Notes under the pieces: model-generated
Databases searched by the model: none
What the model was told of the DNA's origin: nothing
The model's input: the letters and a program-made list of their open reading frames with translations, nothing else
Position numbers and translations under genes: made by a program
Assembly (NCBI RefSeq): GCF_937871615.1
Contig: NZ_CALMPA010000038.1
Location: 1 to 64,000 of the forward strand
Source of the DNA: an uncultured Sphingomonas sp.
Lineage (GTDB): Bacteria; Pseudomonadota; Alphaproteobacteria; Sphingomonadales; Sphingomonadaceae
Length of the DNA: 64,000 nt
Direction: 5' to 3'
Shown: piece by piece, positions 25,929 through 52,305 of the stretch
Layout of the letters: every line of letters starts with the position of its first letter
Position numbering within the stretch: the first letter of the stretch is position 1

Positions 25929-28349
25929 ATGGCTGACCAGATCACGGATACCGTTTGCCCGCGCCGCCGTCTTCGCATCGGCGGTCTGCACCAGCTGCTG
26001 CTCTGCAGCGCCATGGCGATCTTCCCGGCTTCGGGCGCTTTCGCGCAGGCGACACCGGGGCCGGACGCCCCCGCGCCGCAGACTGGCACTACGGCAGCCC
26101 CCCAGACGAGCGAGGCCGACGAGGATTCGCTGACAGGCGACATCATCGTCACCGCGAACCGGCGCAACGAGAGCGCGCAAAGGACCGCGCTTTCCATCAC
26201 GGCGTTCAATGGTGACCAGTTGACGCGTCTGGGAGTGACGAACGCGAGCGACATCGCGAAGATCACGCCGGCGGTCAGCATATATCAGATCCATCCGTCG
26301 GTCACGAATATCAACATCCGTGGCGTGTCGCAAAACTACTTTGCCGACCATCTGGAGGCGCCGATCGCCGTCTATGTCGACGATGCCTATATCGGCTCGA
26401 CGAGCGCGATCGGCGTGCGCAGCTATGACCTCGAGCGCGTCGAAGTGCTTCGCGGACCGCAGGGCACCCTGTTCGGACGCAACGCGACCGGCGGCCTCAT
26501 CCAATACGTGTCCAAGGGCCCGACCGAAACGCTGAGCGCCTACTTCCAGGTCACCGGCGGCGGCTATGAATATGGCAACGGCTTCGTGCAGACCGAAGGT
26601 GCGATCGGCGGCCCGATTGCTAACGGCGTTCGCGCGCGCTTCTCGTTCGCCACCAACAACGACGAGGGCCCCTGGCACAACGGCGTCGGGGCCAATCCGG
26701 GTAACACCAACGAATATGCGGCGCGTCTCCAGTTCGAATTCGACCTGGGCCCGAAGACGACGCTGAAACTGATCGGCTCCACCGACCTCAACCGCGACTC
26801 GCGTGGCGCCGCCTACACGACGCAGGCGGCGGGTGTCGGGCCGAACCAGCTTGGCTTCCCGCTCGCCCCCAATCAGATCGGCACGTACGTGAATCTGGCG
26901 GCGTTGCCGACGCTCGCCTTCATCAATTCGCCCTGCGCAGGTTGTGATCTGACCGGCTACCGCCAGGGATCGAACCCGTTCCGCATCAATTTGAGCAATC
27001 CCGGCGAGTTCGATCGCAGCATCTACTCGATCACCGGCAAACTCACCCATGATTTCGATGGCGTGACCCTGACTGGGGTCAGCAACTACCAGAACATCAA
27101 GAAGATATTCTCGCTCGACAGCGACGGTGGTCCGTCCCATCTGTTCGATTACGGCACCGAGATGAAATATGATCAGTTTTCGCAGGAGCTGCGGCTAAAC
27201 GGCAGCTCGTCAAAGCTGAAGTGGGTGACAGGTGCCTACTATCTCGACATGAATGGTCGCTACGGCGTCGATGGACTGTTCGACCTCGGTCCCTATATCG
27301 GGCTCACCTGCACCGCTCCGGCCTGCACCGCCGGCTCGCCGGTTACGGATGCCTTCCGCGCCGACTACACGCTCAAGGTCCATAGCTGGTCGGTGTTCGG
27401 GCAAGCGGACTATTACGTCACGCCCGAATTCTACGTCACCGCGGGGCTCCGCTACACGCACGATCGCAAAAAATTCGACTATCGCTGGCGCGACCAACTC
27501 GGCTTCCAGACGGTGCTGACGGGCGGACCGGCGAACGTCGTCTACAATCCATCGACTGACCCGACCGCGGACCGATCCTTCAACAACGTGTCGGCCAAGG
27601 CGCAGTTGAACTACGCGCCCGACGCAAACACGCTTTTCTACGCCGGCTATACCCGAGGGCATAAGGGCGGCAACTGGTCGGGTCCGATCTTCCCGCCGAT
27701 CGATGTCTCCTCGCTTCCACACAGGCAGGAGGTTCTGACCTCCTACGAAGCGGGCGCAAAGATCAGGTTCCTCGACGGCCGCGCGACGCTGAACGGATCG
27801 GTGTTCTACTACGACTATAAGGACTATCAGGCGTTCGCGATCGTCAATCTCGTTCAAAAGATCTTTAACGTCGACGCGACCAACTATGGCGGCGAGGTCG
27901 AATTCAAGGTCAATCCGACCCGCGGCCTCGACCTGGCGGTGTCGGCCGCCGTCAGCCACAGCAAGGTGAAGGACGTCCCACTACCCGACGGCGCGTTGGC
28001 GGATCGCGAATTGCCCAACGCCCCAGGACTCTCGCTGACCGGGTTCGCGCGGTACTCCTTCGACGCGCTCGGCGGTAAGCTCGCCGGCCAGGCGAACGTC
28101 AACTATGTCGGATCGCATTATCTGACTGCACTCAATGAACCGACCAACTTCCAGAAGGCGTATACGACGGTCGACTTGCGGGTGGACTACACCTTCCCGG
28201 GCGATCGTTGGAACGTCGCCGCCTTCGTGCGCAACGTGAACAACGAGAAGTACCGCATCTGGGGTCTCGACGTGTCGGCGTTGAGCTACGCGGCGAGCAT
28301 CTACGGCCAGCCTCGCACCTTCGGCGTGACGCTCGGCTGGAAGTATTGA
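25929..28349 (+). CDS. TonB-dependent outer-membrane receptor
   Basis: The product has 806 residues. A long signal peptide ends near FPASGAFAQA. The plug domain follows (DIIVTANRRNESAQRTALSI, VEVLRGPQGTLFGRNATGGL), then a 22-strand-type beta-barrel whose last strand ends RTFGVTLGWKY, with a C-terminal aromatic residue as needed for BAM recognition. It imports a ligand across the outer membrane with energy from TonB-ExbBD. In sphingomonads such receptors often serve aromatic and lignin-derived compounds. Being first in the cluster, it probably takes up the pathway substrate. The ligand cannot be read from the sequence. Confidence 0.9.
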   Translation: MADQITDTVCPRRRLRIGGLHQLLLCSAMAIFPASGAFAQATPGPDAPAPQTGTTAAPQTSEADEDSLTGDIIVTANRRNESAQRTALSITAFNGDQLTRLGVTNASDIAKITPAVSIYQIHPSVTNINIRGVSQNYFADHLEAPIAVYVDDAYIGSTSAIGVRSYDLERVEVLRGPQGTLFGRNATGGLIQYVSKGPTETLSAYFQVTGGGYEYGNGFVQTEGAIGGPIANGVRARFSFATNNDEGPWHNGVGANPGNTNEYAARLQFEFDLGPKTTLKLIGSTDLNRDSRGAAYTTQAAGVGPNQLGFPLAPNQIGTYVNLAALPTLAFINSPCAGCDLTGYRQGSNPFRINLSNPGEFDRSIYSITGKLTHDFDGVTLTGVSNYQNIKKIFSLDSDGGPSHLFDYGTEMKYDQFSQELRLNGSSSKLKWVTGAYYLDMNGRYGVDGLFDLGPYIGLTCTAPACTAGSPVTDAFRADYTLKVHSWSVFGQADYYVTPEFYVTAGLRYTHDRKKFDYRWRDQLGFQTVLTGGPANVVYNPSTDPTADRSFNNVSAKAQLNYAPDANTLFYAGYTRGHKGGNWSGPIFPPIDVSSLPHRQEVLTSYEAGAKIRFLDGRATLNGSVFYYDYKDYQAFAIVNLVQKIFNVDATNYGGEVEFKVNPTRGLDLAVSAAVSHSKVKDVPLPDGALADRELPNAPGLSLTGFARYSFDALGGKLAGQANVNYVGSHYLTALNEPTNFQKAYTTVDLRVDYTFPGDRWNVAAFVRNVNNEKYRIWGLDVSALSYAASIYGQPRTFGVTLGWKY

Positions 28350-28391
28350 ACCACCCGATGTCTCCCTTTTATTTCGCAAGAGATCCACGAC

Positions 28392-29603
28392 ATGGCAACG
28401 CAACCATCCGGCTCACCCCCGACGACTGACATCGACCTGTTCGCGGACGAAACCCTGCTCGACCCGTACGAGTCTTATCGAACCTGGCGAGACGCCGGTC
28501 CTGCTGTATGGTCGACCAGACACGAGGTCTGGATCCTGTCTCGGTTCGACGACGTCAAGCGCGCGTTGGCCGACAACGAGACCTACATTTCGGGCAAGGG
28601 CGTCGGCCTGTACGGACCTGCCAATGAGGCGCTTGAGGGTACGGTGATCGCCAGCGATCCGCCCGAACATGGCGCTCTCCGTCGCGTGCTGGCCGATCGC
28701 ATGTCGCCCCGCGGGATCCGTGCTCTGCAGCCCGAGGTCGAAGCGGCGGCGAACTCCCTCGTTGACAGCATCGTCGCGAAGGGGTCCTTCGACGCGATGC
28801 CCGACCTGGCTCGGAAGTTTCCGCTGATGGTGATGGCCGACCTCATCGGGCTGCCCGGAGACGATCATGGCAGCTTGCTCGGCTGGGCCGATGCCGGCTT
28901 CAACACGTTCGGCCCGGCGAACGATCGTGCAGTCTCTTCGATGCCGATCGTCGGCGAGATGTTCGGCTACATCGCGAGCCTCGACGCCGACCCGTCGAAG
29001 TTGCGCGAAGGCAGCATGGGGCGCGAGATCTACGAGGCGTCCGAGCGCGGCGAACTTAAGTTCGAGCAGTGCGGGCGTCTCATGGCGGCCTATCTGATGG
29101 CGGGACTCGACACCACCATCTCTTCGATCGCCAACGCCGTCTGGCTGTTCGGACGGAATCCCGAGCAGTGGACGATCGCAAGGAGCGACCCCGCGCGCAT
29201 ACCGCACGTCTACAACGAGATCCTGCGCATCGAGTCGCCAGTCCAAACGTTCCGACGGACGCTGACGAAGGACGTCCAATTGGGCGATGCGCTGATGCGC
29301 GAGGGCGACGCCGTCCTGCTGCTCTACGGTTCGGCCAACCGGGACGAACGCCATTGGCAAGATCCGGACAAGTTCGACGTGCGACGTCGCTCCGCCGATC
29401 ACCTCGCGCTCGGTTTCGGGATCCACAATTGCGCGGGGCAGGGCGTCGCCCGTCTCGAGGCGCACTCGCTGCTCGCGGCGCTGGCGCGCAAGGTCGAGCG
29501 GTTCGAGGTCGGGACGCCGAAGCGCCACCTGAACAATCTGATCCGCAACTTCGACAGTCTGCCCGTGACGCTGGTGCCGGCAGCGGAGATGGAAAATGCC
29601 TGA
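28392..29603 (+). CDS. Cytochrome P450, probable oxidative O-demethylase (CYP199-like)
   Basis: The product has 403 residues. I-helix oxygen-binding motif AGLDTT near 237-242, ExxR in EILR near 276-279, and heme-binding FGIHNCAG with Cys347. N-terminal DIDLFADETLLDPYESYRTW and C-terminal RHLNNLIRNFDSLPVTLVPA resemble class I bacterial P450s of the CYP199 group, whose known members O-demethylate 4-methoxybenzoates. It needs a ferredoxin and reductase; both lie downstream in the same cluster (39239, 40859). Formaldehyde-oxidising genes downstream support a demethylase role. Substrate assignment is inference. It overlaps the next gene by 8 bases. Confidence 0.9.
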   Translation: MATQPSGSPPTTDIDLFADETLLDPYESYRTWRDAGPAVWSTRHEVWILSRFDDVKRALADNETYISGKGVGLYGPANEALEGTVIASDPPEHGALRRVLADRMSPRGIRALQPEVEAAANSLVDSIVAKGSFDAMPDLARKFPLMVMADLIGLPGDDHGSLLGWADAGFNTFGPANDRAVSSMPIVGEMFGYIASLDADPSKLREGSMGREIYEASERGELKFEQCGRLMAAYLMAGLDTTISSIANAVWLFGRNPEQWTIARSDPARIPHVYNEILRIESPVQTFRRTLTKDVQLGDALMREGDAVLLLYGSANRDERHWQDPDKFDVRRRSADHLALGFGIHNCAGQGVARLEAHSLLAALARKVERFEVGTPKRHLNNLIRNFDSLPVTLVPAAEMENA

Positions 29604-30825
29604 GAAGCCCCGTGTTCTCCTGATCGTCACGCAGGATACCAAGAAGATCGAAGGCGCGTTCCTTCGCGACTGCCTGGAGGAAGCCGGCTGCGAGGTCATC
29701 CACCTCGATCCCAGCGTCCGCCAGACGGTCGGCGGCGCCGAAATCGGACCTGACGAAGTCGCCGCGGCCGCCGGGAAGTCGATCGAGGAGATCCGGGCGA
29801 TCGGTCACGAGGGCAAGATCCAATTGGAGATGATCGCCGGCGCGACCAAGCTGGCGCTTGCCCGCCATGAGCAGACTCCCTTGTCGGGGATCATCTCGAT
29901 CGGCGGGTCTATGGGCACGACCCTGGGTACCGCGGTGATGCGCGCGTTCCCCTACGGCATGCCGAAGGTGATGATCTCGACCCTGGCCTCCGGGTTCACG
30001 GTGCCGTTCGTGGGCATCAAGGACATCGTGATGCACAATTCGGTGTGCGACATATCCGGCATCAACAGCATCACCCGCGACGTGTACCGCAACGGCGCGT
30101 TCGCCGTGGCCGGCATGGCGCGGCATTACGCGCCCGGCGTCGCCGAGAACAAGCCGCTCGTCCTCGTGAGTACGCTCGGCACGACCGAGAAGGGGATGCG
30201 CCGCCTGCGCGAAAGTCTCGAAGCCGACGGCTACGAGGTGATGGTGTTCCATACCACCGGCATGGGCGGCCAGACGCTCGACGCGATCGCCTCCGAGCGG
30301 GATGTCGCCGCCATCGTCGACATGTCGCTGGTCGAAGTGAACGACCTTTTGCACCAGGGAATCTGCAGCGCGGGGCCCGACCGCTCGAAAGCGGGGCCCA
30401 AACGCGGAATTCCCGTCGTCTTCGCCCCCGGCAACATCGATTTCTATATCATGCCGTCACCGATGGCGGTCGGCGACGATCCCTTCGATGGCCGCCGGTT
30501 CCACATCCACAACGCTGCGCTCACGGCCGTCAGAACGGGTGAAAAGGACTTGGAGATGCTCGCCGATCACATGGCCGAGCTGGTGCGCGGCGCGAAGGGA
30601 CCGGTACGCTTCTACGTTCCGCTTCATGGCTTCTCTAGCCACGACAGCGAGGAAGGGAAACTGCACGATCCGTCGCTGCCGCCCAAGTTCGCGGAGTATG
30701 TCGAGAAGGTCATGCCCGACAACGTCGATGTCCGCACGTTCGACGCTCATATCAACGATGCGGCCTTCGGTGACGCGCTGGCCGACGCCGTGCGCGAGAT
30801 GGTTGCCAATAAGATCGAAGCATGA
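29596..30825 (+). CDS. Tm-1-like ATP-binding domain protein (UPF0261)
   Basis: The product has 409 residues, the normal length for UPF0261. Start RVLLIVTQDTKKIEGAFLRD, then GIISIGGSMGTTLGTAVMRA and GMPKVMISTLASGFTVPFVG, and later EVMVFHTTGMGGQTLDAIAS and GIPVVFAPGNIDFY, match the family throughout. The N-terminal domain of the tomato homologue Tm-1 binds ATP. The bacterial reaction is not established to my knowledge. It sits between the P450 and the biotin-dependent carboxylase and overlaps the carrier gene by four bases. In the related acetovanillone pathways a kinase acts before the carboxylase, so an ATP-dependent activation of the substrate is a reasonable guess here. Confidence 0.85.
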   Translation: MPEKPRVLLIVTQDTKKIEGAFLRDCLEEAGCEVIHLDPSVRQTVGGAEIGPDEVAAAAGKSIEEIRAIGHEGKIQLEMIAGATKLALARHEQTPLSGIISIGGSMGTTLGTAVMRAFPYGMPKVMISTLASGFTVPFVGIKDIVMHNSVCDISGINSITRDVYRNGAFAVAGMARHYAPGVAENKPLVLVSTLGTTEKGMRRLRESLEADGYEVMVFHTTGMGGQTLDAIASERDVAAIVDMSLVEVNDLLHQGICSAGPDRSKAGPKRGIPVVFAPGNIDFYIMPSPMAVGDDPFDGRRFHIHNAALTAVRTGEKDLEMLADHMAELVRGAKGPVRFYVPLHGFSSHDSEEGKLHDPSLPPKFAEYVEKVMPDNVDVRTFDAHINDAAFGDALADAVREMVANKIEA

Positions 30826-31307
30826 GCACCGAGCCCATTCTTACCCCCGAAGATGTCGCCGACATCGTCGCCATTCTCGATGGCACGTCGTACGAGCGTA
30901 TCGACATCACCACGAGCCGGTTCACCCTGCGCGTCGCGCGGTCGGGTGACGGCTGGACGCAGGACTGGTCCTGGAAGCAGGATGAGGATGCCCAGGCAGC
31001 ATCGGCAGGCCCGATCGAGCCGCTGTCGTCGGGCAGTGCGACCGGGGTGCCCGATGACGGCACTGTCGCCGTGCGATCTCCCTTGCCCGGCGTGTTCTAT
31101 CGTTCGCCTCAGCCTGGTGCGGCGCCGTTCGTCGACGTCGGCGACACCGTCGCACCGGACACGGTCGTCGGCATTATCGAAACGATGAAGCTCATGAACC
31201 CCGTCCACGCCGGCATCGCCGGCACGGTGGCCTCCTGGTCGGTCGACAATGCCGAGCAGGTCGATAAGGACGGAGTCATTCTGCGCGTCACGCCGGTGCC
31301 GGCGTGA
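30822..31307 (+). CDS. Biotin carboxyl carrier protein subunit
   Basis: The product has 161 residues. The C-terminal biotinyl domain has the biotinylation motif IIETMKLMNP with the modified Lys at residue 123 (E-T-M-K-L instead of the common A-M-K-M) and the matching APDTVVG and KDGVILRV strands. The N-terminal ~75 residues (LTPEDVADIVAILDGTSYER) resemble the AccB N-terminal helix and linker. It carries carboxybiotin between the biotin carboxylase (next gene) and the carboxyltransferase (32634). It overlaps both neighbours by four bases. Confidence 0.9.
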   Translation: MSTEPILTPEDVADIVAILDGTSYERIDITTSRFTLRVARSGDGWTQDWSWKQDEDAQAASAGPIEPLSSGSATGVPDDGTVAVRSPLPGVFYRSPQPGAAPFVDVGDTVAPDTVVGIIETMKLMNPVHAGIAGTVASWSVDNAEQVDKDGVILRVTPVPA

Positions 31308-32641
31308 TCAAGCGGCTCTTCATCGCCAATCGCGGCGAAATCGCGCTGCGCATCATACGAACGGCGCGTCGGATGGGGATCACCACGATCCTCGGCGTAT
31401 CGGAAGCGGATCGCCAGTCGATGCCGGCGCGCGCCGCCGACGAGACTGTCCTGGTCGGGCCGGCCCGGTCGAGTGACAGCTATCTCTCGATCGAGCGCGT
31501 GGTCGCGGCGGCCCGGGCGGCTCGCGCCGACGCCGTGCATCCGGGCTATGGCTTCCTGTCCGAAAATGCTGCGTTCGCCGAAGCGCTTGCCGAAGCCGGG
31601 ATAATCTTCGTCGGACCCGAGCTGGCCAGCCTGCGTGCGATGGGTGACAAGCTGATGGCACGGAAGGTCGGGATCGAGGCCGGCCTGCCGGTGGTCCCGG
31701 GCGGCGAGGCGGCCGACAAGGACGCCGCACGCGCCCGTGCCGGAGAAACCGGCTACCCGCTGTTGCTCAAAGCCGTTTCCGGCGGCGGCGGGCGAGGGAT
31801 GAAGCGCGTGGACGCGCCCGAGCAGCTGGATTCGCAAATCGACATGGCGATGGCCGAGGCGCTCGCCGCGTTCGGCGATGCTCGCGTCTATGTCGAGCGC
31901 TACATCGCACGCGGCCGACACGTAGAGGTCCAGGTGCTCGGCGACGGCGTCGATGCGATCCACCTCGGCACCCGCGACTGCTCGATTCAGCGACGCTTCC
32001 AGAAGCTCGTCGAGGAAGCGCCGGCGCCGGGCATCCCGCGCGAGAAGCACGAAGCCCTGATGGAGGCCGCGGTCCGGCTCACGCGCCATCTTGGCTATCG
32101 CGGCGCCGGGACGGTCGAGTTTCTCGTCGATGCCGAGACGTTCGACTTCTTCTTTCTCGAGATGAACGCGCGCATTCAGGTCGAGCATCCGGTCACGGAA
32201 GCGATCACCGGCGTGGATTTGATCGAGCAACAATTGTTGGTCGCGGACGGCCAGCGGCTCGGCCTCGCCCAGGACGACGTTTCGATCACCGGTCACGCCA
32301 TCGAGACGCGTATCAACGCGGAAGAATGGACGGCCGACTTCCGGCCGTCGCCCGGAACGGTGCAGCGGGCGGCGTGGCCTGCCGGCGCCGGCATCCGAGT
32401 CGATAGCCACATCGCGAGCGGCGACGAAGTCCCGCCGTTCTACGACTCGCTGATCGGTAAGCTGATCGTCCTTGGAACCGACCGCGCTGAAGCGGTCGAA
32501 CGCCTCGACGGTGCGCTTCGGGCCATGCAGATCGAAGGGGTCGCGACCACCGTCGACCTTCACGGCCGGATCGTAGCCGATCCCCGCTTCCGCGCGGGCG
32601 GCGTCGACACGCGCTTTTTCGAAGGACTGGCACATGGCTGA
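31304..32641 (+). CDS. Biotin carboxylase subunit
   Basis: The product has 445 residues with a GTG start inside the carrier stop (GTGA). The AccC-type order is complete: IANRGEIALRIIRTARRMGI at the N-terminus, HPGYGFLSENAAFAEA near 80, ATP-grasp glycine loop SGGGGRGMK near 158-166, and catalytic EMNARIQVEHPVTE near 285-298. It carboxylates the carrier-bound biotin with ATP and bicarbonate. There is no fused carrier domain, so the enzyme is of the three-subunit type. Its partner CT is PYC/OadA-like rather than AccAD- or PccB-like. Confidence 0.92.
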   Translation: MIKRLFIANRGEIALRIIRTARRMGITTILGVSEADRQSMPARAADETVLVGPARSSDSYLSIERVVAAARAARADAVHPGYGFLSENAAFAEALAEAGIIFVGPELASLRAMGDKLMARKVGIEAGLPVVPGGEAADKDAARARAGETGYPLLLKAVSGGGGRGMKRVDAPEQLDSQIDMAMAEALAAFGDARVYVERYIARGRHVEVQVLGDGVDAIHLGTRDCSIQRRFQKLVEEAPAPGIPREKHEALMEAAVRLTRHLGYRGAGTVEFLVDAETFDFFFLEMNARIQVEHPVTEAITGVDLIEQQLLVADGQRLGLAQDDVSITGHAIETRINAEEWTADFRPSPGTVQRAAWPAGAGIRVDSHIASGDEVPPFYDSLIGKLIVLGTDRAEAVERLDGALRAMQIEGVATTVDLHGRIVADPRFRAGGVDTRFFEGLAHG

Positions 32642-34111
32642 AATCGGCCTCGTCGACGTCTCCATGCGAGACGGGAATCAAAGCTGTGGGGCGCGACCGG
32701 TCTGCGGTCCGCGCAGATGCTGGAGATCGCGGGGAAGCTCGACCGAGCCGGCTTCCGCGCGATCGACTTCACGTCTTCGAGCCACATGGCGGTGGCGGTT
32801 CGCTACTTTCGGGACAATCCATGGGAGCGTATCCGGCGGATGCGCGCCGCGATGCCGCGAACGCCGCTGCAATTCATCACGACTGGCCTGCGCTTCATCG
32901 CCTGGCAGCAGGCCGATCCCGACTTCATGCGGATCGTCTACCGGCGCTTGCAGGCTAACGGCATCCGTCGGTTCGTGATGCTGGACCCGATGCATGACGT
33001 CGCCGCCGTTTTGGAGGCAGCACGCATCGTCAAGGAAGAGGGCGATGCGGAGGTGATGGCCGCTCTCACCTTCACACTGTCCGACGTTCACGACGATGCG
33101 TTCTACGCCAACTTCGCCGCGCAGCTGGCGGGCAGCCCTGACATCGATCTGTTCTACATCAAGGATCCGGGGGGCTTGCTGTCCCCGGAGCGCGCGAAGA
33201 CGCTGGCACCTGCGATCAAGGCGTCGATCGGCGACAAGGCGCTCGAGATCCATCCGCATTGCACGATCGGCTTCGGCCCCGTCGCGGCATTGTCCGCGGT
33301 CGAGACCGGCGCGGTCTCCGCCGTGCACGTCGGGATCGGCCCGCTCGGCGACGGCAGCTCGCTGCCCGAAGCCGGTCGCATGCTCGCGAACCTCGCGGAG
33401 GCCGGTCATCCGGTACCGGTCGACGCCGGGCTGCTCTCCGAGATCAGCGACTATTGGTGGCGGCTCGCGCGGGCGGAGAAGCTGGAACCTGGCACCCCGC
33501 AGAGCTACGATGCGAGTTTTCTGCGGCACCAGATCGCCGGCGGCGTGATGACGACGACCAAGCGCCAGTTGCAGGAACTCAACCTGCTGCACCGTCTGCC
33601 TGAAGTCATCGCCGAAACCGAGCGGGTGCGATCCGAGCTCGGCCAGCCGATCATGGTGACGCCGTTCCCGCAGATGGTCATGAGCCAGGCTCTGTTCAAC
33701 GTCATCGGCACGGGCCGGTATGCCCAAGTGTCCGATCAAGTGCTCCGCTACGTGATGGGGAAATTCGGTCGGCCGACGCGGCCGGTCGATCCCGTGGTCG
33801 AAGCCGCGATCCTCAACCGCAACCGGGCTGCGGAAATCGCCGCGGAGCCGGATTTTCCGACACTCGCCGATCTGCGCCGCCGCTTCGGCGCGTCCATGGA
33901 CGACGAGGAATTCCTGCTGCGTGCGGTGATGCCCGGCGAGCAGGTCGATGCGATGCTCGCGGCGGGGCCCAGCTTGGCGCGGTACAATCCGGGGGCCGTC
34001 CCCATGCTTGAGTTGCTGCGCGCGCTCGCCGCCCGCCCGGCCGCCAGAGACATCGTCGTCGAGCGCCCGGGGTTGCGTTTGGCGCTTCACGCGGGAGACG
34101 CAATTGCCTGA
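32634..34111 (+). pseudogene. HMGL-type carboxyltransferase subunit with an apparent one-base deletion
   Basis: The N-terminus starts at ATG 32634 (overlapping the BC stop by 8): MAEIGLVDVSMRDGNQS, with the RDGNQS motif whose Asp binds the active-site metal in pyruvate-carboxylase/oxaloacetate-decarboxylase-type CT domains. At 32684 the frame breaks: restoring one C gives LWGATGLRSAQMLEIAGKLD and joins to the frame open from 32717 to 34111, which holds the rest of the TIM barrel (FYIKDPGGLLSP, EIHPHCTIGFGP for the other metal ligands) and the C-terminal PYC-type domain. It would transfer CO2 from carboxybiotin to the pathway ketone. Either this is a sequencing error or the carboxylase is inactive. 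No classic slippery site is present. Confidence 0.8.
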
Positions 34112-34958
34112 GCTCTCTCCCTTGTTGGCGGACAGGATCGCCGCGGCGTCGGCGTTCGTCTTCGACATGGACGGCACGCTGGTGCTCGGCGACGCCGCGA
34201 GCGGCGGGCATCAGTCCTTGCCTGGTGCCGCTGCGCTGCTGTCCGAGTTGAGGGTGCGCGGCACGCCGTTTCGTGTTTTCACCAACGGCACGGCAAAGCC
34301 ACCCGAAGTCTACGCATCGAGCCTGCGCCACGCCGGGCTCGACGTCGCCGACCACGAGATGATGACGCCGTCCACGGCCGCCGCAGCCTGGTTCGTGGCC
34401 AAGGGGATAAAGCGCGTCCGCGTCCTCGGCCTCGCGGGCGTTCAGGCGCCGTTGATCGAGGCGGGCCTCGACGTGATCGGTCCTTCGGAAAAGGCGGAAG
34501 GGGTCGAGGCGGTCTACACCGGCTGGTTTCGCGAATTCACGTTCCCGGACCTCGAAGCGGCATACAAGGACGTGTGGGCGGGCGCGATGTTGACGACCGC
34601 GTCGAACGTACCGTTCTTTGCGACAGCGGGTGGTCGCGCGATCGGCGCGAGTTATGCGATCAACGCGATGATCCGCGCAATGACGGGCAAGCGCGCCAAG
34701 GTCCTCGGGAAGCCGTCGCGCGAGGCCCTTCGCAGCGCACTGACGCTTATGAAATTGCCGGTCTCCGCCGAGGCGTCGACGGTGATCGTCGGCGACGATC
34801 CCGCGCTCGAAATGCGCATGGCGCGCTCGGCTGGGGCGATCGGTGTGGCTGTCACGACCGGGCTGTGCAGCCGCGACGACTTCATGGCGCGCGGTTCGCC
34901 GGAGCGGGCTGACGCGATCCTGCCGGGACTGCAACCGATCCTGGAGGCCCTGAACTGA
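34104..34958 (+). CDS. HAD-IIA phosphatase (NagD / 4-nitrophenylphosphatase-like)
   Basis: The product has 284 residues. It has a TTG start with GGGAGACGCAA upstream, 8 bases inside the preceding gene; the long open frame before it is antisense-like. Motif I is FDMDGTLVLGD, motif II FTNGT, motif III Lys in GKPSREAL, motif IV VGDDPALEMRMARSAG. HAD-IIA enzymes hydrolyse aryl and sugar phosphates. In the acetovanillone pathways a phosphatase (AcvF, HpeD) removes the phosphate that protects the phenol; this gene holds the equivalent place, next to the carboxylase. The family equivalence is inferred. Confidence 0.8.
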   Translation: MPELSPLLADRIAAASAFVFDMDGTLVLGDAASGGHQSLPGAAALLSELRVRGTPFRVFTNGTAKPPEVYASSLRHAGLDVADHEMMTPSTAAAAWFVAKGIKRVRVLGLAGVQAPLIEAGLDVIGPSEKAEGVEAVYTGWFREFTFPDLEAAYKDVWAGAMLTTASNVPFFATAGGRAIGASYAINAMIRAMTGKRAKVLGKPSREALRSALTLMKLPVSAEASTVIVGDDPALEMRMARSAGAIGVAVTTGLCSRDDFMARGSPERADAILPGLQPILEALN

Positions 34959-35401
34959 TGTACGTCAACCGCCGGCGGGTCACCATCGAATGGGGCGACT
35001 GCGATCCCGCCGGGATCGTTTTCTATCCGCGCTACTTCGCCATGTTCGACGCGTCCACCGCGCATCTCTTTGCAGCGGTGCTCGGAATGCACAAACGCGA
35101 AATGATCGCCAAGTTCGAGATGATCGGCTTCCCAATGGTCGACACGGCAGCTCGCTTCTTCGTCCCGAGCAAGTTCGGCGACGAAGTGACGATCGAGACC
35201 CAGGCGACGGACCTCGGCCGTAGCAGCTTCGGCATTTCACACCGCGTGTTCCGCACAGGTGGCGTGCTGGCGATCGAGGCGACCGAGAAGCGGGTCTGGG
35301 CCGGTGTTCATCCCGAAGATCCGCATCGCATCACTGGTATTCCCATTCCCGAAATCGTTCGCGCGGCGCTCGAAAGCGGGCCGCTCGAGCGTCAACCCTG
35401 A
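34958..35401 (+). CDS. 4-hydroxybenzoyl-CoA-type hotdog thioesterase
   Basis: The 147-residue protein has the 4HBT signature WGDCDPAGIVFYPRYFAMFD with catalytic Asp16. It starts by one-base overlap (TGATG) with the phosphatase stop. Members hydrolyse aryl-CoA esters such as 4-hydroxybenzoyl-CoA. Directly before the beta-keto acid cleavage enzyme, it parallels the VceA/VceB pair of Sphingobium SYK-6, where VceB hydrolyses vanilloyl-CoA. The expected product here is the free aromatic acid. Confidence 0.88.
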   Translation: MYVNRRRVTIEWGDCDPAGIVFYPRYFAMFDASTAHLFAAVLGMHKREMIAKFEMIGFPMVDTAARFFVPSKFGDEVTIETQATDLGRSSFGISHRVFRTGGVLAIEATEKRVWAGVHPEDPHRITGIPIPEIVRAALESGPLERQP

Positions 35402-35412
35402 CTGGAGTAGAC

Positions 35413-36294
35413 ATGTCGAAGGTAATGATCACGGTGGCGCCGACCGGCGGCATGGCGTCCAAGGCGCAGAACCCGAACCTGCCCACGCAACCGGGCGAGA
35501 TCGCCGAGTCGGTGTACAAGAGCTTCAAGGCGGGCGCGTGCATCGCGGCCCTGCACGCGCGTCGGCCCGATGACGGCGCGACGTGCAACGCCGACATCTA
35601 CCGCGACATCAACGAGCGCATTCGAGCCAAATGCGACATCGTCATCAACAACTCGACCGGCGGCGGCTCCAGCGGCGACATGCTCATCGAGCGCCAGGAC
35701 GGCCTTTACGAGTCCAGCTTCGAGGAACGATTGAAGGGTTGCGAGGCCGGTGCCGAAATGGCCACATTCGACGGCATGACGTTCGTGGATGTGCACGGCG
35801 GGAAGGAAATTCTCGTTATCACGCCGCCTAGCCGTTGCGAGACGCTCGTCAAGCGCATGACCGATCGTGGCATAAAACCGGAGTGGGAAGTCTTCGCGCC
35901 GAACCACATCCTGCAGGACGTCACCCGCCTGATCCAGAAAGGCTATGACAAGCCGCCTTACTACATCAACATGGTCCTCGGCGCCGACAAGGGCTTCCAG
36001 GGCGCGATGCCTTACAGTCACGACGTGCTGACCGCGATGGTCGCGGCGCTTCCGCCGCAATCGATCTTCTGCGTATCGGCGATCGGGCCGGCGCAATTGC
36101 CCGCGACCACGCAGGCGATGCTGTTGGGCGGTCATGTCCGCGTAGGCCTCGAGGACAACAACTATTTCAGCAAGGGCGTGCTCGCGACCAACGAGATGCT
36201 CGTCGAGCGCACGGTGGGCATCGCCAAGGCGCTAGGACTGCAGCCGACGTCCCCCGCCGAAGCGCGCGACATTCTAGGACTCGCCCAGCGGTGA
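35413..36294 (+). CDS. Beta-keto acid cleavage enzyme (BKACE, DUF849)
   Basis: The product has 293 residues with GGAGTAGAC upstream. The family turns a beta-keto acid plus acetyl-CoA into an acyl-CoA plus acetoacetate on a zinc ion. Seen: N-terminal ITVAPTGG...NPNLPTQPGEIA, STGGGSSG near 77, YYINMVLGADKGFQG, and the metal Glu in GLEDNNYF (Glu247). The zinc pair usually reads HxH at positions equal to 46 and 48 (VIHLHIR); here it reads AALHAR, so the first His is Ala46 while His48 remains. Its placement after a carboxylase that would make a beta-keto acid fits well; compare VceA. Confidence 0.88.
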   Translation: MSKVMITVAPTGGMASKAQNPNLPTQPGEIAESVYKSFKAGACIAALHARRPDDGATCNADIYRDINERIRAKCDIVINNSTGGGSSGDMLIERQDGLYESSFEERLKGCEAGAEMATFDGMTFVDVHGGKEILVITPPSRCETLVKRMTDRGIKPEWEVFAPNHILQDVTRLIQKGYDKPPYYINMVLGADKGFQGAMPYSHDVLTAMVAALPPQSIFCVSAIGPAQLPATTQAMLLGGHVRVGLEDNNYFSKGVLATNEMLVERTVGIAKALGLQPTSPAEARDILGLAQR

Positions 36295-36323
36295 GAGCAT
36301 CACGATCAACCGGCGAGGCTTCG

Positions 36324-37103
36324 ATGACTGATTTGTCGGCGATGTTCCGTCTTACCGGCCGTACGGCGATCGTCACCGGCGCCGCTGGCGGGCTGGGGCG
36401 CGCGATCGCGGTCGGGCTCGCGGAAGCGGGCGCCGACGTCGCGGTTATGGACATCGACGCGGCGGGATTGGGAGCGACGGCCGCCGCGATCCGAACCGGC
36501 GGACGGCAGTCCATTGAGATCGTCGTCGATGTCGGCGACGAGGCGGCGGTCGAAGCAGCCTTCGCCGAGTTCGACCGCGGATTCGAGCGGCTCGACATCC
36601 TGGTTAACAATGCGGGGATCGCGGACACCGTGCCCGCGCCCCTTCACGATTGCCCCACCGATGTCTGGCATAAGGTGACCGCAGTGAACCTGCACGGTGT
36701 CTTCCATTGCGCACGCGCAGGACTGAACCGCATGTTGCCACGCCACAGCGGGAAAGTCGTCAATGTCGCTTCGATGTGGGGTCTGGCGGGAAGTTCGAGC
36801 GTCGCGCCGCTACCGGCCTATGCTGCGACCAAGGGAGCTGTCGTCAATCTGACGCGCGAACTAGCGCTCGAATATGCGCCACACGGCATCACCGTGAACG
36901 CGATCTGTCCCGGCTTCTTCCGCACGGCATTGGGTCCCTATGACGATCCAGATTTTCTCGCCGCGACGCAGGGTTTCACGCCGGCAGGGCGGATCGCCGA
37001 GGCCGACGAGATCAAGGGCACCGCGGTGTATCTCGCCTCGCGGGCGTCGGATTTCGTGACCGGTGCGACCTTGGTCGTCGACGGGGGATGCATGGCGAAA
37101 TGA
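36324..37103 (+). CDS. Short-chain dehydrogenase/reductase
   Basis: The product has 259 residues from ATG 36324 (GGCGAGG upstream); GTG 36291, overlapping the BKACE stop, is an alternative giving 11 more residues. Classical [11 protein letters not shown] cofactor loop, acidic residue after beta-2 (MDID), NNAGIAD, catalytic Ser in [12 protein letters not shown], and YAATK. The acidic residue at the end of beta-2 suggests NAD rather than NADP. It may oxidise a secondary aryl alcohol to the ketone that the carboxylase uses, but the sequence does not show the substrate. Confidence 0.88.
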
Positions 37104-38125
37104 CCGGTGCGTCGACGGATTGGTCGCTCGAGGCGATCCGCGGGCTTTTCGAGCTTCCGTTTCTCGACCTGGTGGCTCGTGCGCACGACGTGCATGGCCG
37201 ACATCATGCGGCGAACGAAGTCCAGCTATCGACCCTGCTGTCGATCAAGACCGGGGGATGCGTTGAGGATTGCGGCTATTGCAGCCAATCGATCAAGGCG
37301 AAGTCGGGGCTGAAGGCCGAGAGGCTGGCGAGCGCCGACGCCGTAGTCGCCGCTGCTCGCGCGGCCAAGGCGGCCGGTTCGACGCGGTTTTGCATGGGCG
37401 CGGCCTGGCGGAGTCCGAAGGAACGCGACATGCCCGCGCTGCTTGCCATGGTGGCGGAGGTCAAGGCGCTGGGCCTGGAGACCTGCATGACCTTGGGCAT
37501 GCTCGATGACGGACAGGCGGAGCGCTTTGCAGGCGCGGGCCTGGATTTCTACAACCACAACATCGACACCAGCCCCGCATATTACGATCGCGTCATCACG
37601 ACGCGGACCTTCCAGGATCGGCTCGAGACGCTCGAGCGCGTTCGCGCCGCCGGCATCGCCGTCTGTTGCGGAGGCATTCTCGGCATGGGGGAGAGCCGGG
37701 AAGACCGCGTGGCATTCATCCACGCGCTCGTCTCCTTGCCCGAACCACCGCAGAGCGTTCCGCTGAACGCGCTCGTTCCCATCGCGGGGACGGCGTTGGG
37801 TGACCGGCTATCGACTTCGCAGCAGGTGCGGATCGACGACATCGAGTTCGTCCGCACCGTCGCCGTCGCCCGCATCGCGATGCCGAGGTCGATGGTCCGG
37901 CTGTCGGCAGGTCGCGAAAGCATGTCGGATGCCACGCAGGCGCTCTGCTTCTTGGCCGGCGCCAATTCGATCTTCACCGGCGATCGGCTGCTCACCACGA
38001 GCAACGCCGGAGCCGGCGCCGATGCGGACCTGTTCCGAAAACTGGGACTGACGCCGTCATCGCTGCCAGAAAGCGCCGCCGGTCGCGAGGCCGGTCGTCT
38101 CGATTATGAAATGGAGAGAATTTGA
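37100..38125 (+). CDS. bioB: Biotin synthase BioB
   Basis: The product has 341 residues with an ATGA overlap with the SDR. Radical-SAM cluster CVEDCGYC near residues 54-61, [30 protein letters not shown] and the conserved late Arg in RLSAGRE are all present. It inserts sulfur into dethiobiotin, the last step of biotin synthesis. Finding it in the middle of this cluster, with overlaps on both sides, shows it is expressed with the biotin-dependent carboxylase, presumably to meet its cofactor demand. Confidence 0.95.
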
Positions 38126-39237
38126 TGAAGTCGCGTGCAGCCGTCGCGTTCGAAGCCAAGAGGCCGCTGGAGATCGTCGAGGTTGATCTCGAGGGACCGA
38201 AGGCGGGCGAGGTGCTCGTCGAGATCATGGCGACGGGGATCTGCCACACCGACGCCTATACCCTCGATGGCTTTGACAGCGAAGGACTGTTTCCCTCGAT
38301 TCTCGGTCATGAAGGCGCGGGCGTCGTGCGCGAGGTGGGGGCGGGCGTCACCAGCGTGTCCCCGGGCGACCATGTCATCCCGCTCTACACACCGGAATGC
38401 CGCCGGTGCAAATCGTGCCTGTCGGGCAAGACGAACCTGTGCACGGCGATCCGTGCCACGCAGGGGAAGGGGCTGATGCCCGACGGGACGAGCCGGTTCA
38501 GCTACAAGGGCCAGCCGATCTTCCACTACATGGGCTGCTCGACCTTCTCGAACTTCACTGTCCTGCCCGAAATCGCCGTCGCCAAGATCCGCCAGGACGC
38601 GCCGTTCCAGACCAGCTGCTACGTCGGCTGCGGCGTCACGACCGGCGTCGGTGCGGTGACCAATACCGCCAAGGTCCAGGCGGGCGACAATGTCGTGGTG
38701 TTCGGGCTCGGCGGGATCGGGCTCAACGTCATCCAGGGCGCGAGGATGGTCGGCGCGGGCAAGATCATCGGCGTCGATATCAATCCCGATCGCGAGGAAT
38801 GGGGCCGCAAGTTCGGTATGACCGACTTCCTCAACTCCAAGGGCCTGAGCCGCGAAGAGACGATCGCAAAGCTCCTCGAACTGACCGACGGCGGCGCCGA
38901 TTACACCTTCGACGCCACGGGTAATACCGAAGTGATGCGGACCGCGCTGGAGGCATGTCATCGCGGCTGGGGCACCAGCATCATCATCGGCGTCGCCGAA
39001 GCCGGCAAGGAGATCGCGACGCGGCCATTCCAGCTCGTCACCGGGCGCAACTGGCGCGGCACTGCGTTCGGCGGGGCGAAGGGCAGGACCGACGTGCCCA
39101 AGATCGTCGACTGGTACATGCAGGGGAAGATCGCGATCGACCCGATGATCACGCACGTCCTCGGCCTTGAAGAAATCAACAGGGGATTCGACTTGATGCA
39201 CGCAGGGCAGAGCATTCGTAGCGTGGTGGTCTACTGA
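38122..39237 (+). CDS. frmA: S-(hydroxymethyl)glutathione dehydrogenase (class III ADH)
   Basis: The product has 371 residues with an ATGA overlap with bioB. Class III zinc alcohol dehydrogenase: catalytic zinc in [13 protein letters not shown] and LGHEGAG, structural zinc cysteines in [16 protein letters not shown], and Rossmann [13 protein letters not shown]. It oxidises the glutathione-formaldehyde adduct with NAD to S-formylglutathione. Together with the hydrolase at 40017 it forms a complete formaldehyde-detoxifying pair, which indicates that the pathway releases formaldehyde. Confidence 0.95.
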
Positions 39238-39238
39238 C

Positions 39239-39556
39239 ATGGCCAGCTTCTTCGTCACGACGCGCGAGCGCGAAGTCATCGAGGTGGAGGGGATCGACGG
39301 ACTGTCGGTCATGGAGCTCATCCGGGACGCCGGAATCGACGAACTGCTCGCCCAGTGCGGCGGTTGCCTGTCGTGCGCCACCTGCCACGTTCAGGTCGAT
39401 CCGGCCGATAGCGACCGTCTGCCGCCGATGAAGCCGGATGAAGACTATCTGCTCGACAGTTCGGATCATCGCGTCGCGACATCGCGATTGTCCTGCCAGC
39501 TGCCTTTTTCCAGCGAGCTCGACGGTCTGCGCGTCACGATCGCCCCCGAGGGCTGA
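39239..39556 (+). CDS. 2Fe-2S ferredoxin (adrenodoxin type)
   Basis: The product has 105 residues and starts one base after the frmA stop. The cluster ligands are [10 protein letters not shown] (C-x5-C-x2-C) and a distal Cys in [22 protein letters not shown] is the usual segment after the cluster. It is the electron donor type for class I P450s and is the likely partner of the P450 at 28392, reduced by the reductase at 40859. The C-terminus ends EG without a long tail. Confidence 0.92.
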
Positions 39557-39614
39557 CGGGTACCACGGTATTCGAACGCGTGGCTAAGTCCGCGCGGTCG
39601 ACAGGAGACTGAGT

Positions 39615-40013
39615 GTGGCGGTCATTTCAGGGGATGGGATCTTCACTCGCGCGATGCTCCGGGCCAGGGACCTTGATGCCTCGGCGAGGTTCTACGATGC
39701 CGCATTGTCTCCCCTCGGGTGGAAGATCCTCGGCCCGTTCGACGACGAGAGGATGCCTTGGGACAGGAACAAGCCCGCGTTCCCGGTCGTGCGGCCCGGT
39801 ACCGGCGAGGCGTCGTCAAGCGGCGTGACGATCGGGTTCGCGGCGGAAGCGACCCGGGGCGTCGACGCCTTTCAAGCGGCGGGGCTCGCGGCCGGCGGCA
39901 CCGACGAGGGCGCGCCAGGACAACGCAGGCATCTGCCCGGGGCCCATGCGGCCTATCTTCGGGACCCAGGCGGCAACAGAGTGTGCGGCTATGCCTTCGG
40001 CGACGGCAACTGA
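39615..40013 (+). CDS. VOC (glyoxalase-fold) family protein
   Basis: The product has 132 residues with a GTG start after GGAGACTGA. It has the vicinal-oxygen-chelate layout: LRARDLDASARFYDAALSPL, a central beta segment, then AAYLRDPGGNRVCGYAFG. VOC genes are often found between frmA and the formylglutathione hydrolase gene, so a link to glutathione or formaldehyde handling is plausible. The reaction is unknown. Confidence 0.8.
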   Translation: MAVISGDGIFTRAMLRARDLDASARFYDAALSPLGWKILGPFDDERMPWDRNKPAFPVVRPGTGEASSSGVTIGFAAEATRGVDAFQAAGLAAGGTDEGAPGQRRHLPGAHAAYLRDPGGNRVCGYAFGDGN

Positions 40014-40016
40014 CCG

Positions 40017-40862
40017 GTGGAGGAGGTCAGCACCAACCTGGCCTTTGGCGGCGTCCAGGGCGTCTATCGCCACCCCTCCTCGGCGACCGGCACCGACATG
40101 ACCTTTTCGGTGTTCGTTCCCGCCCATCCGGCGGGACAGACACTGCCGGTGGTATGGTTTCTGTCGGGCCTCACCTGTACGCACGCCAACGTGACCGAGA
40201 AGGGCGAGTACCGCAGGGCGTGCGCGGAGCTCGGCCTCATCTTCGTGGCACCCGATACCAGTCCGCGCGGCCAGAATGTCCCCGACGATCCTCTCGGCAG
40301 CTACGATTTCGGCCTGGGTGCCGGTTATTACGTCGACGCGACCGAACCCCCGTTTTCGGCGAACTATCGGATGAGATCCTATTTCGAGGAACTCTCCACG
40401 CTCGTGTTCGACCGGTTTCCCGGCGATCCGTCGCGCCAGGCGATCATGGGCCATTCGATGGGCGGCCACGGTGCGCTGACCATAGGTTTGTCCGAGCCGG
40501 GCCGCTTTCAATCGGTGAGCGCCTTCGCACCCATCGTGGCGCCGACCCAGGTGCCGTGGGGAATCAAGGCGCTCCGCGGTTATCTCGGGCACGACCGCGC
40601 CACCTGGCGATCACACGATGCCGTCGCCCTGATCGAGGACGGCGCGCGCGTGCCCGTCATCCTCGTCGATCAGGGAACGGATGATCAGTTCCTGACCGAG
40701 CAGCTGCGGCCCGATCTCCTCGAGAATGCGTGTCGCGAGGCCGGTATTCCGCTGACGCTTCGGCGCCAGGCCGGATACGATCACAGCTATTACTTCATCT
40801 CGAGCTTCATGGCGGATCATCTGCGTTGGCACGCCGCGCGACTTGGAGGCGCGGCACGATGA
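40017..40862 (+). CDS. frmB: S-formylglutathione hydrolase
   Basis: The product has 281 residues with a GTG start 3 bases after the VOC stop. Esterase-D family alpha/beta hydrolase: oxyanion segment [13 protein letters not shown], nucleophile elbow GHSMGGHGA, Asp in DQGTDDQF and His in GYDHSYYF. It hydrolyses S-formylglutathione to formate and glutathione, finishing the formaldehyde branch. It overlaps the next gene by four bases. Confidence 0.93.
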
Positions 40863-42106
40863 TGCGGAGCGACCCTCGCCACTTCGACGTGGTGATCGTC
40901 GGCGCGGGACATGCCGGTTCCCAGCTCGCCATCGCGCTTCGCCAGCGCAAGTTCCAAGGGTCGATCGCGTTGCTGGGCGACGAGGGCGATCCGCCTTATG
41001 AACGACCGCCGCTTTCGAAGGAATATCTGTCGGGCGAGAAGACGTTCGATCGACTGTTGATCCGGCCGCTTGAATTCTGGGCTGTCCGCGACGTCACGCT
41101 CCTGCTGTCACGGCGGGCTGACGCGGTGGATCCCGCCGCTCGGACGCTGCAGGTTTCCGATGGCACGACGATTTCCTACGGCAAGCTCGTCTGGGCGACC
41201 GGTGGGCAGCCGCGTCGATTGACGTGTTCCGGGCACGACCTGCGTGGTGTTCACGCCGTCCGCTCTCGCGCCGACGTCGACCGCCTGATCGCCGAACTGC
41301 CGTCGGTGACTCGCGTGATCGTGATCGGTGGCGGCTATATCGGCCTTGAAGCCGCGGCGGTGCTCACCAAGCTTGGCAAACCCGTCACCGTGCTCGAGGC
41401 GCAGGACCGCGTTCTCGCGCGCGTCGCTGGCGAGGAACTGTCGCGGTTCTACGAGGAGGAGCACCGGTCGCACGGCGTCGATCTGCGTACAGGCGTGTCG
41501 ATCGAATGCATCGACGAAGAAGCGGGTGCCGCGTGCGGTGTCCGGTTGGCAGACGGTTCGACGATCGCCGGCGAGATGGTCATCGTCGGAATCGGCATCG
41601 TTCCGGCGGTCGCACCATTGGTCACCGCAGGGGCGAGAAGCGCAAACGGGGTCTGGGTCGACGAGTTCTGCCGCACCAGTCTCGATGACGTCTATGCCTT
41701 GGGCGACTGTGCGGCGCATGCCAACCGGTATGCAGACGGAGCGGTGATCCGGCTGGAATCGGTTCAGAACGCGAACGACCAGGCGGCGACGGTGGCCAAG
41801 GCGCTGATGGGCGAGTTCGAAGCCTATGACGCGGTGCCCTGGTTCTGGTCCAATCAGTATGATCTGAAGCTCCAGACCATCGGGCTTTCCACTGGTTTCG
41901 ATGCCACCGTCGTCCGTGGCGACCGGGCGGCACGCAGCTTCTCGATCGTCTATCTGCGCGCCAGCCGCGTGATCGCGCTCGACTGCGTCAATTCGACCAA
42001 GGACTACGTGCAAGGGCGGGCGCTCGTCGCCACAGGTGCGGTACTGAGCCCGACCCGATTGGCCGACGCAAGCGTACCGCTCAAGGAGATGGTCCCCGCA
42101 GCGTAG
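40859..42106 (+). CDS. NAD(P)H-dependent ferredoxin reductase (FAD)
   Basis: The product has 415 residues, start ATG 40859 (ATGATG) inside the hydrolase stop. It has an FAD-binding [13 protein letters not shown] at the N-terminus, [15 protein letters not shown], a second Rossmann motif [12 protein letters not shown] for NAD(P)H, and the C-terminal FAD motif [13 protein letters not shown]. Its shape is that of putidaredoxin reductase/rubredoxin reductase-like proteins. It passes electrons to the ferredoxin at 39239 and on to the P450. It is the last intact catabolic gene. Confidence 0.93.
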
Positions 42107-43266: not shown

Positions 43267-44466
43267 ATGGCTGAGGAACCCGCGGAACTCTCCAAGGGAG
43301 AGATTATCGTCGTAAGAACGCAGGATGCGGCGCTCCCGACGCGTTCGCGCAAAGCGGAGGCGGAACCGGTCGATGCACGGCTGCTGCGCGCGATCGGCAG
43401 CATCGTTCCGCCCGACCTGCCGCCGATCAGCCAGCTCGGGCTCGAAACCGCGCTGGCGGCCATGGCTGATGCATCGAAAGCGGCGATAGCCTCCGATCTC
43501 GACTGCTGGCGCGACTGGTGCGGCGAGGAAGGCCGCACGCCATTGCCCGCCGATCCCGAAGATATGGTGCGCTATGTGAACGCGCTCGACATCAGGGGCA
43601 AAAAGCCCGCAACGCTGGCGCGGCGGATCGCGAGCCTTGGCTCGGTCCACCGGCTGATGGGTTTGGCCTCGCCCGCCGCGCCGACCGATGCCCCGATGGT
43701 CCGCGATGCACTGAAGGCCGTCCGCCGGCGTAGAGGTGCGCTCCAGCGACAGGCGACCCCTCTGCGGCTGGGCAAGGCGCTTGATCCCCATGCCGCAAAG
43801 GGCTTCACCCTGACCGCCATGCTCGACGCTTGTGGCGGCGACCTTCAGGGCCTGCGGGACGCTGCCCTGCTATCGCTTGGCTATGATGCGGGCTTGCGTG
43901 TCAGCGAACTCACTGTGGTGGAAGGATTGCATATCGATCCGCAGGAGGATGGTTCGGCGACGCTGTTCATCCCCTTCTCCAAGACCGACCAGGAGCAGGA
44001 AGGCGCCTGGGCATGGCTGTCGGCTGAGACGATGCGGCGGGTTGGCGCGTGGCTCGAAGCAAGCGGCATCAAAGAAGGCCCTCTGTTCCGCAGGGTCGGC
44101 GTCGACCGGCGGCGCGCGCGGGAAGCCGAACCGGAAACCGCCCTGGCGCGAACGACCTATTCCATTGGAACGGCGCCCCTGACGCGGCAGGGTGTCAACG
44201 GCATCTATCGCCGCGTGGCTTATGCAGCTTATGAGCAGGGACTGGTGACATTGCCCGCAGGCAAGTTAACCGACGCGGTGAAGGCCTTGTCCACCCATTC
44301 GCTGCGCGTCGGCTTGACCCAGGATCTTTTTGCGGCGGGTGAGGACGGCGCTGGCATTGCCCAAGCGCTGCGCTGGAGCTCGCCGACCACCGCGCTGCGC
44401 TACGGCCGAAAGCTCGCGGTGCGCAGCAATGTCGCAGCGCGGGTGCTCTCGAGGGTTCGCAGATGA
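43267..44466 (+). CDS. Tyrosine recombinase (XerC/D-like)
   Basis: The product has 399 residues. The N-terminal SAM-like core-binding domain (SDLDCWRDWCGEEGRTPLPA, ATLARRIASLGSVHRLMG) is followed by the catalytic domain with Arg in DAGLRVSELTVVEG, HSLRVGLTQDLF (His-x-x-Arg), RW in QALRWSSPTTALRY and the nucleophile Tyr in ALRYGRKL. It is complete, in contrast to the remnant at 22197. With the palindromic site upstream it probably resolves plasmid multimers or integrates an element. It ends 20 bases before the convergent RES toxin gene. Confidence 0.88.
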   Translation: MAEEPAELSKGEIIVVRTQDAALPTRSRKAEAEPVDARLLRAIGSIVPPDLPPISQLGLETALAAMADASKAAIASDLDCWRDWCGEEGRTPLPADPEDMVRYVNALDIRGKKPATLARRIASLGSVHRLMGLASPAAPTDAPMVRDALKAVRRRRGALQRQATPLRLGKALDPHAAKGFTLTAMLDACGGDLQGLRDAALLSLGYDAGLRVSELTVVEGLHIDPQEDGSATLFIPFSKTDQEQEGAWAWLSAETMRRVGAWLEASGIKEGPLFRRVGVDRRRAREAEPETALARTTYSIGTAPLTRQGVNGIYRRVAYAAYEQGLVTLPAGKLTDAVKALSTHSLRVGLTQDLFAAGEDGAGIAQALRWSSPTTALRYGRKLAVRSNVAARVLSRVRR

Positions 44467-49945: not shown

Positions 49946-49965
49946 GGCCGGCCTTCCCTTCCTTG

Positions 49966-52238: not shown

Positions 52239-52305
52239 CTCGCGGGCAACGGAGTGCCGACGCCAGAAGACGCCGGGGATACAAAGCGGCGAAGTGCGGC
52301 GCGGA

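Follow-up and report, generated by a model that had tools for sequence, protein, structure and literature searches.

The stretch of DNA analysed here, referred to as the window, comprises the first 64,000 bases of a 141,960-base contig of an uncultured Sphingomonas sp. Fifteen closely packed genes on its plus strand (25929-42106) form a series in which a cytochrome P450 precedes what appears to be the core of a hydroxyphenylethanone pathway. Family and profile scans of the window proteins gave the order TonB receptor, P450, UPF0261 protein, biotin carboxyl carrier protein (BCCP), biotin carboxylase (BC), carboxyltransferase (CT), HAD phosphatase, thioesterase (TE), beta-keto acid cleavage enzyme (BKACE), short-chain dehydrogenase (SDR), biotin synthase (BioB), FrmA, ferredoxin, FrmB and ferredoxin reductase. 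Genes of the series overlap or lie no more than 42 bp apart; the sole exception is the junction of ferredoxin and FrmB, with a gap of 460 bp. The parts that a preliminary description of this co-directional series had named were confirmed by the family scans, although its gene list had overlooked UPF0261, SDR and BioB as well as a frameshift in CT.

The series, all of it on the plus strand, opens with a TonB-dependent receptor (25929..28349; PF00593, PF07715) and the P450 (28392..29603; PF00067 and PDB matches), probably an O-demethylase or benzylic hydroxylase. A UPF0261/Tm-1-like protein follows (29596..30825; PF06792, PF23189), and then, in order, the genes of a predicted three-subunit, biotin-dependent carboxylase: BCCP (30822..31307; PF00364, with the motif ETMKLM), BC (31304..32641; PF00289, PF02786, PF02785) and a PYC/OadA-type CT (32634..34111), recognised by family scans, frame reading and relatives and frameshifted near its 5' end. 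The HAD-IIA phosphatase (34104..34958, start inferred; PF13344, PF13242) is NagD-like, as in the Hpe, Acv and Mar pathways; its solved-structure matches include NagD, and its TIGR01460 score of 83 bits is below the cut-off of 100. It is followed by a 4HBT thioesterase (34958..35401; PF13279, PF03061) and by BKACE (35413..36294), which reached 261 bits with PF05853 (cut-off 24.8) and whose function is assigned by family. The SDR (36291..37103; PF13561) is probably a 1-arylethanol dehydrogenase, and BioB (37088..38125; TIGR00433 at 371 bits, cut-off 225) has a second copy elsewhere in the genome. The remaining genes encode FrmA, an S-(hydroxymethyl)glutathione dehydrogenase (38122..39237; TIGR02818 at 605 bits, cut-off 544), a 2Fe-2S ferredoxin recognised by PF00111 and its sequence and probably the P450 partner (39239..39556), FrmB, an S-formylglutathione hydrolase (40017..40862; TIGR02821 at 396 bits, cut-off 282), and an FAD-dependent ferredoxin reductase (40730..42106; PF07992, PF14759), the true start of which is probably near 40860.

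Gene content, order, homology and conservation were read directly, and from them we infer every reaction and substrate. We see an even chance that the operon encodes, on a plasmid, a variant of the hydroxyphenylethanone pathway of Hpe, Acv and Mar in which O-demethylation by the P450 comes first. The TonB receptor would take up either an aryl methyl ketone that is neutral and 4-methoxylated or the corresponding 1-arylethanol, which the SDR would oxidise, and the P450 with its ferredoxin and reductase would remove the O-methyl group as formaldehyde, which FrmA and FrmB would oxidise. The UPF0261 kinase would phosphorylate the freed 4-hydroxyl, the biotin-dependent carboxylase would next act on the methyl group, and dephosphorylation by the HAD enzyme would follow. 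BKACE would then cleave the beta-keto acid with acetyl-CoA, giving acetoacetate and 4-hydroxybenzoyl-CoA, from which the thioesterase would release 4-hydroxybenzoate. The core module and its relatives lend good support to the earlier suggestion that the cluster follows the same logic as Acv, Hpe and Vce.

The earlier list contained no kinase, and UPF0261 fills the place of the phosphorylating enzyme. The structure 9mpy, titled as a UPF0261 domain-containing protein in the PDB, scores 482 bits against the window protein (56% identity, taken from the identical protein of locus L007) and 578 bits against the second UPF0261 copy of the genome. It is 83.0-85.2% identical to the UPF0261 proteins of seven Novosphingobium loci (L022, L023, L025, L027, L029, L030, L033), in all of which UPF0261 precedes BCCP, BC, CT and HAD. 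According to a 2026 paper, a very similar pathway in N. aromaticivorans, Mar, begins with the single-component kinase MarK (PMC13101465, which cites Hall et al. 2025). Judged by its title and this neighbourhood, 9mpy is probably MarK, which would make MarK a UPF0261 protein, and the window UPF0261 is probably an aryl-ketone kinase acting on the 4-hydroxyl. The two-component, PPDK_N-type kinase of Hpe and Acv is not found in the genome: PPDK_N (PF01326), the family to which HpeI would belong, judging by PMC12167813, had no match in this Sphingomonas genome (completeness 100), whereas 13 of 14 control genomes matched. The two UPF0261 and two BKACE matches of the genome all fall within two modules, the one in the operon and a second one on the same contig. 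The poorly understood UPF0261/Tm-1-like family is thereby linked to a putative role as a catabolic kinase.

A locus scan with the two UPF0261 proteins of the genome as queries covered 29 loci. In 21 of them the genes directly downstream of UPF0261 are BCCP and BC, and 19 of these continue through CT and HAD. The contig ends before CT and HAD can be read in L018 and L024, and within UPF0261 in L031 and L035; a diverged, non-adjacent carboxylase lies within 10 kb in L011-L014 and L032, and none was seen in L009. TE and BKACE adjoin the core in six loci (L007, L015, L016, L020, L021, L034). Among the 29 loci a P450 stands beside the core only in L007 (Sphingobium bisphenolivorans YL23) and L034 (Aurantiacibacter xanthus), both of them copies of the window operon. 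Nearly identical stretches of two other genomes, G381 and G397, carry a diverged operon that runs TonB receptor, P450, UPF0261, BCCP, BC, CT, HAD, TE, BKACE, SDR, which argues that the gene series is more than chance. Its identities to the window in G381 are 65% for the TonB receptor, 74% for the P450 (likewise 74% in G397), 75% for BC, 77% for CT, 89% for BKACE and 61% for the SDR at the equivalent position. The search of genomes for the same neighbourhood, as proposed earlier, thus recovered the TonB receptor-P450-core order but not the block of Frm, ferredoxin, reductase and BioB genes. Upstream of the G381 operon (L056:11747-15200) lies a block that encodes an esterase, a further SDR and a monooxygenase of Baeyer-Villiger type; it pointed to no particular substrate.

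L020 (Sphingobium sp. YR768) groups as sister to the window copy, with support of 100/99 in the UPF0261 tree and 100/100 in the BC+CT tree. It retains TE, BKACE, SDR (67%, at the equivalent position) and BioB. Its entry genes encode a cytochrome c and a p-cresol-methylhydroxylase-like flavoprotein (L020:6280-8273), the latter of which matched p-cresol methylhydroxylase at 545 bits and, as its best match, the FAD-binding oxidoreductase 9ffk at 840 bits. With a P450 in the window and a flavoprotein in its sister, the entry enzyme varies around a constant core, and the hydroxyphenylethanone core can be seen as a mobile cassette that accepts different enzymes at its entry. L020 is a candidate 4-ethylphenol operon, the gene set of which would fit conversion of 4-ethylphenol via 1-(4-hydroxyphenyl)ethanol to 4-hydroxyacetophenone. 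A single origin of the P450-core pairing was considered and rejected, as both trees require two changes, be they loss, swap or two separate gains.

CYP199A P450s such as CYP199A2 and CYP199A4 are known 4-methoxybenzoate demethylases. The window P450 is about 40% identical (157/391) to CYP199A2; it keeps the DT of the I helix and the heme-cysteine region and lacks the R-P-P-S and V-R-S motifs, the residues of which we take to bind the benzoate carboxylate. For want of these motifs, its membership among the CYP199A benzoate P450s was rejected, and a neutral substrate such as an aryl ketone or alcohol with a methoxy group is plausible, rather than a methoxybenzoate. Both motifs are also absent from the G381 P450, and both are complete in three of 19 aligned relatives (L047, L049, L054). 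Searches with the P450 at E <= 1e-80 gave matches in 19 of the 397 family genomes, with identities above 44% confined to the genome itself (100%) and G381 (74%), and at E <= 1e-110 in one of 385 genomes of the class, again its own; both counts are lower bounds, since four candidates were scored in many genomes and the genomes were drawn from larger groups. Within the genus of G381, two of 14 genomes matched at E <= 1e-120 (G381 and G397). The genome itself holds six P450 matches. The P450 neighbourhoods of R. opacus 1CP and Aminobacter MSH1 were also inspected, and neither settled the question of the substrate; in Aminobacter MSH1, FrmA and a BKACE of 31% identity lie 5-7 kb from the P450.

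FrmA and FrmB score over the cut-offs of their equivalog families, those of glutathione-dependent formaldehyde oxidation. In the window lineage the two genes alternate with those of ferredoxin and reductase. Because of this interleaving, and because the carboxylate-binding motif is absent, O-demethylation by the P450 is plausible. The FrmA-ferredoxin-FrmB cassette recurs (87/64/69%) on a plasmid of Sphingomonas aliaeris, where glycoside hydrolase genes surround it and a different P450 (38%) is encoded at some other site of the plasmid. In the window, the gap between ferredoxin and FrmB (39557-40016) holds a 132-aa open reading frame that matches no family; in the S. aliaeris cassette the gap measures about 10 bp.

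The N-terminal part of CT, with DVSMRDGNQS, lies in the frame of 32634-32978 and the remainder in that of 32717-34111. The N-terminus is unbroken in all 12 other relatives read (L008, L010, L015, L016, L017, L019, L020, L021, L022, L025, L029, G381); L015, L016 and L021 show the same residues there. L007 and L034 share the break. Over the span compared (window 19596-40822, with the reductase outside it), L007 shows no mismatch in 21,227 bases and L034 a single one, at window 26948. The same DNA with the same break was assembled in both, which makes it unlikely that the frameshift is an assembly error. Classical programmed frameshifting, the form covered by the test, was rejected as well. With CT frameshifted, the carboxylation step in this copy is probably dead, or dependent in trans on the intact paralogous module some 50 kb away; such complementation is possible because the subunits are separate proteins and that module lies on the same contig.

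The earlier proposal that O-demethylation comes first is therefore plausible from the interleaved Frm genes and the absent motif, but several observations weigh against this reading of the operon as a whole. The R-P-P-S segment is wholly missing in 11 of the 19 aligned P450 relatives, so that its loss is no special mark of the operon. A second FrmA, over the cut-off, is encoded elsewhere in the genome, and formaldehyde oxidation is therefore independent of the operon. In G381 and G397, P450 and core occur with no Frm, ferredoxin, reductase or BioB gene in at least 10 kb read on each side; the nearest ferredoxin (65-66%) is on a different contig from the operon, with no FrmA near it (14 kb read in G381, 3.3 kb in G397). 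The sister L020 has its flavoprotein at the entry, with no P450 seen there, and the link between MarK and UPF0261 rests on a PDB title plus gene neighbourhood. Finally, the frameshift leaves the N-terminal RDGNQS segment outside the main CT frame, and no classical slippery heptamer (X-XXY-YYZ, in frame) was found in the CT stretch tested.

Because its sister operon has a p-cresol-methylhydroxylase-like flavoprotein instead, the main rival to O-demethylation is a P450 that hydroxylates a 4-ethyl arene at the benzylic position, replacing that flavoprotein. 4-Ethylphenol, for example, would be hydroxylated to 1-(4-hydroxyphenyl)ethanol, which the SDR would oxidise to 4-hydroxyacetophenone for the core, and the Frm genes would have been carried along with the ferredoxin/reductase cassette. 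This route would account for the SDR, kept in L020 next to the flavoprotein and cytochrome c and placed after BKACE in three distinct operons (window, L020, G381), as well as for the G381 P450 with no Frm nearby; an upstream FAD_binding_4 flavoprotein, 35% identical to that of L020, is found in L008 too. Benzylic hydroxylation would, however, have no need of FrmA and FrmB, both of which the window lineage has in alternation with the redox partners, and we regard it as a serious but unlikely alternative. We consider it improbable that the operon, with its broken CT, is a decayed relic recently spread by plasmid: an identical frameshift in three assemblies, within 21-kb stretches that are the same or one base apart, and the lack of a classical slippery site would suit a relic, but the family scans showed no other broken gene in the series, and the intact paralogous module with a CT of 73% identity is at hand.

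Very unlikely, in our view, is a P450 that acts on some other substrate of the bisphenol A route, such as a bisphenol or its methyl ether, with the core taking the acetophenone half. S. bisphenolivorans YL23, which has the identical stretch, is a bisphenol A degrader that yields P450-hydroxylation products, and genes of bisphenol A type occur on the window contig; against this, plasmid pBAR1 of strain AO1 has the second module only (30 kb read), plasmid searches returned no window-type copy in it, and bisphenol A hydroxylation is ascribed to another P450. The P450 system in question is known as bisdAB. An aliphatic ether or an N-methyl compound as the substrate seems less likely in view of the phenolics genes that adjoin relatives of the core (p-cresol-methylhydroxylase-like flavoprotein, lignostilbene-dioxygenase and pobA homologues). 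To go further along the O-demethylation reading, we suggest, tentatively and with somewhat less than even confidence, a self-contained, plasmid-mobile pathway from an O-methylated aryl methyl ketone, possibly derived from O-methylated bisphenol A. It would combine P450 O-demethylation, formaldehyde oxidation and biotin supply within the operon, a UPF0261 kinase and BKACE cleavage, with P450 and flavocytochrome swapped at the entry around a constant core.

To call the cluster a possible new system, as the preliminary description did, is too strong: its core chemistry is already known from Hpe, Acv and Mar, and this cluster puts a new front end before a pathway already described, with CT frameshifted in this copy. 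Its unusual parts are the front (TonB receptor-P450) and the end (FrmA-ferredoxin-FrmB-reductase), and no description of a P450/Frm front end on a hydroxyphenylethanone core was found among the open-licence papers searched. Mar begins with a single-component kinase, the role proposed for the window UPF0261, and the seven Novosphingobium loci share the UPF0261-BCCP-BC-CT-HAD order; they showed no P450, ferredoxin, FrmB, BioB, TE or BKACE, and their FrmA matches are weak (25-28%). The Acv/Vce system of Sphingobium SYK-6 is said to close with VceA/VceB, a BKACE-like plus thioesterase ending. It shares the logic of kinase, carboxylase and phosphatase but differs in its two-component AcvAB kinase, in having the last two steps encoded elsewhere, and in an operon of six genes with no P450 described among them (PMC13101465 and PMC9618137, on Higuchi et al. 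2022). Hpe of Rhodococcus rhodochrous GD02 likewise proceeds through phosphorylation, biotin-dependent carboxylation, dephosphorylation and beta-keto acid cleavage (PMC9618137). In contrast to the window, its kinase HpeHI is a two-component dikinase (PMC9618137; PMC12167813), its last steps fall to an acyl-CoA synthetase together with a beta-keto hydrolase (HpeE/F), where the window has BKACE and 4HBT thioesterase, and no P450 is described among its eight operon genes (PMC9618137). Aromatoleum aromaticum EbN1 has a p-ethylphenol pathway in which 4-hydroxyacetophenone is the substrate of the carboxylase XccBCA, homologous to HpeCBA (PMC9618137). This pathway is anaerobic and in its logic nearest to the sister operon L020. 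It is not known to include P450 or Frm genes.

The operon is probably located on a conjugative plasmid or element, given the genes around it. Six of the 10 surrounding proteins scanned are conjugation proteins (TrwB, TrwC, TraG, TraH, TraC and TrbI types; TrwC is a relaxase), flanking the operon at 11011-16596 and 47150-63777, and an AbiE-like toxin-antitoxin pair lies upstream on the minus strand (19994-21536; AbiEii by Pfam, AbiEi under its cut-off). The second complete module, TE-BKACE-UPF0261-BCCP-BC-CT-HAD with an intact CT, is found about 50 kb downstream on the minus strand (L005, contig C38:82000-100000, at 10324-17108; with L006 1669-3108 and 6523-7704), and its proteins are, in that order, 55/84/61/46/71/73/55% identical to those of the first. 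Near it are a lignostilbene-dioxygenase homologue (550 bits, below the cut-off of 800) and PobA (660 bits, cut-off 539). A similar gene set is annotated on plasmid pBAR1 of the bisphenol A degrader Sphingomonas bisphenolicum AO1, and further copies of the module occur in S. bisphenolivorans, Croceicoccus bisphenolivorans and A. xanthus. The 4-hydroxyacetophenone half of bisphenol A may be degraded through this module, a candidate lower pathway that would then reside on bisphenol A plasmids.

Divergent from the operon is the gene of a large MalT-like, LuxR-type protein (23017..25764, minus strand; NCBIfam NF003420 at 282 bits, below the cut-off of 537). It has a 48-49% identical relative at the equivalent position in G381 and G397, is 100% identical in L007 and L034, and is likely the regulator of the operon. 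Directly downstream of the operon lies a phage-type integrase (43267-44466), 38% identical to the integrase near pobA on pBAR1.

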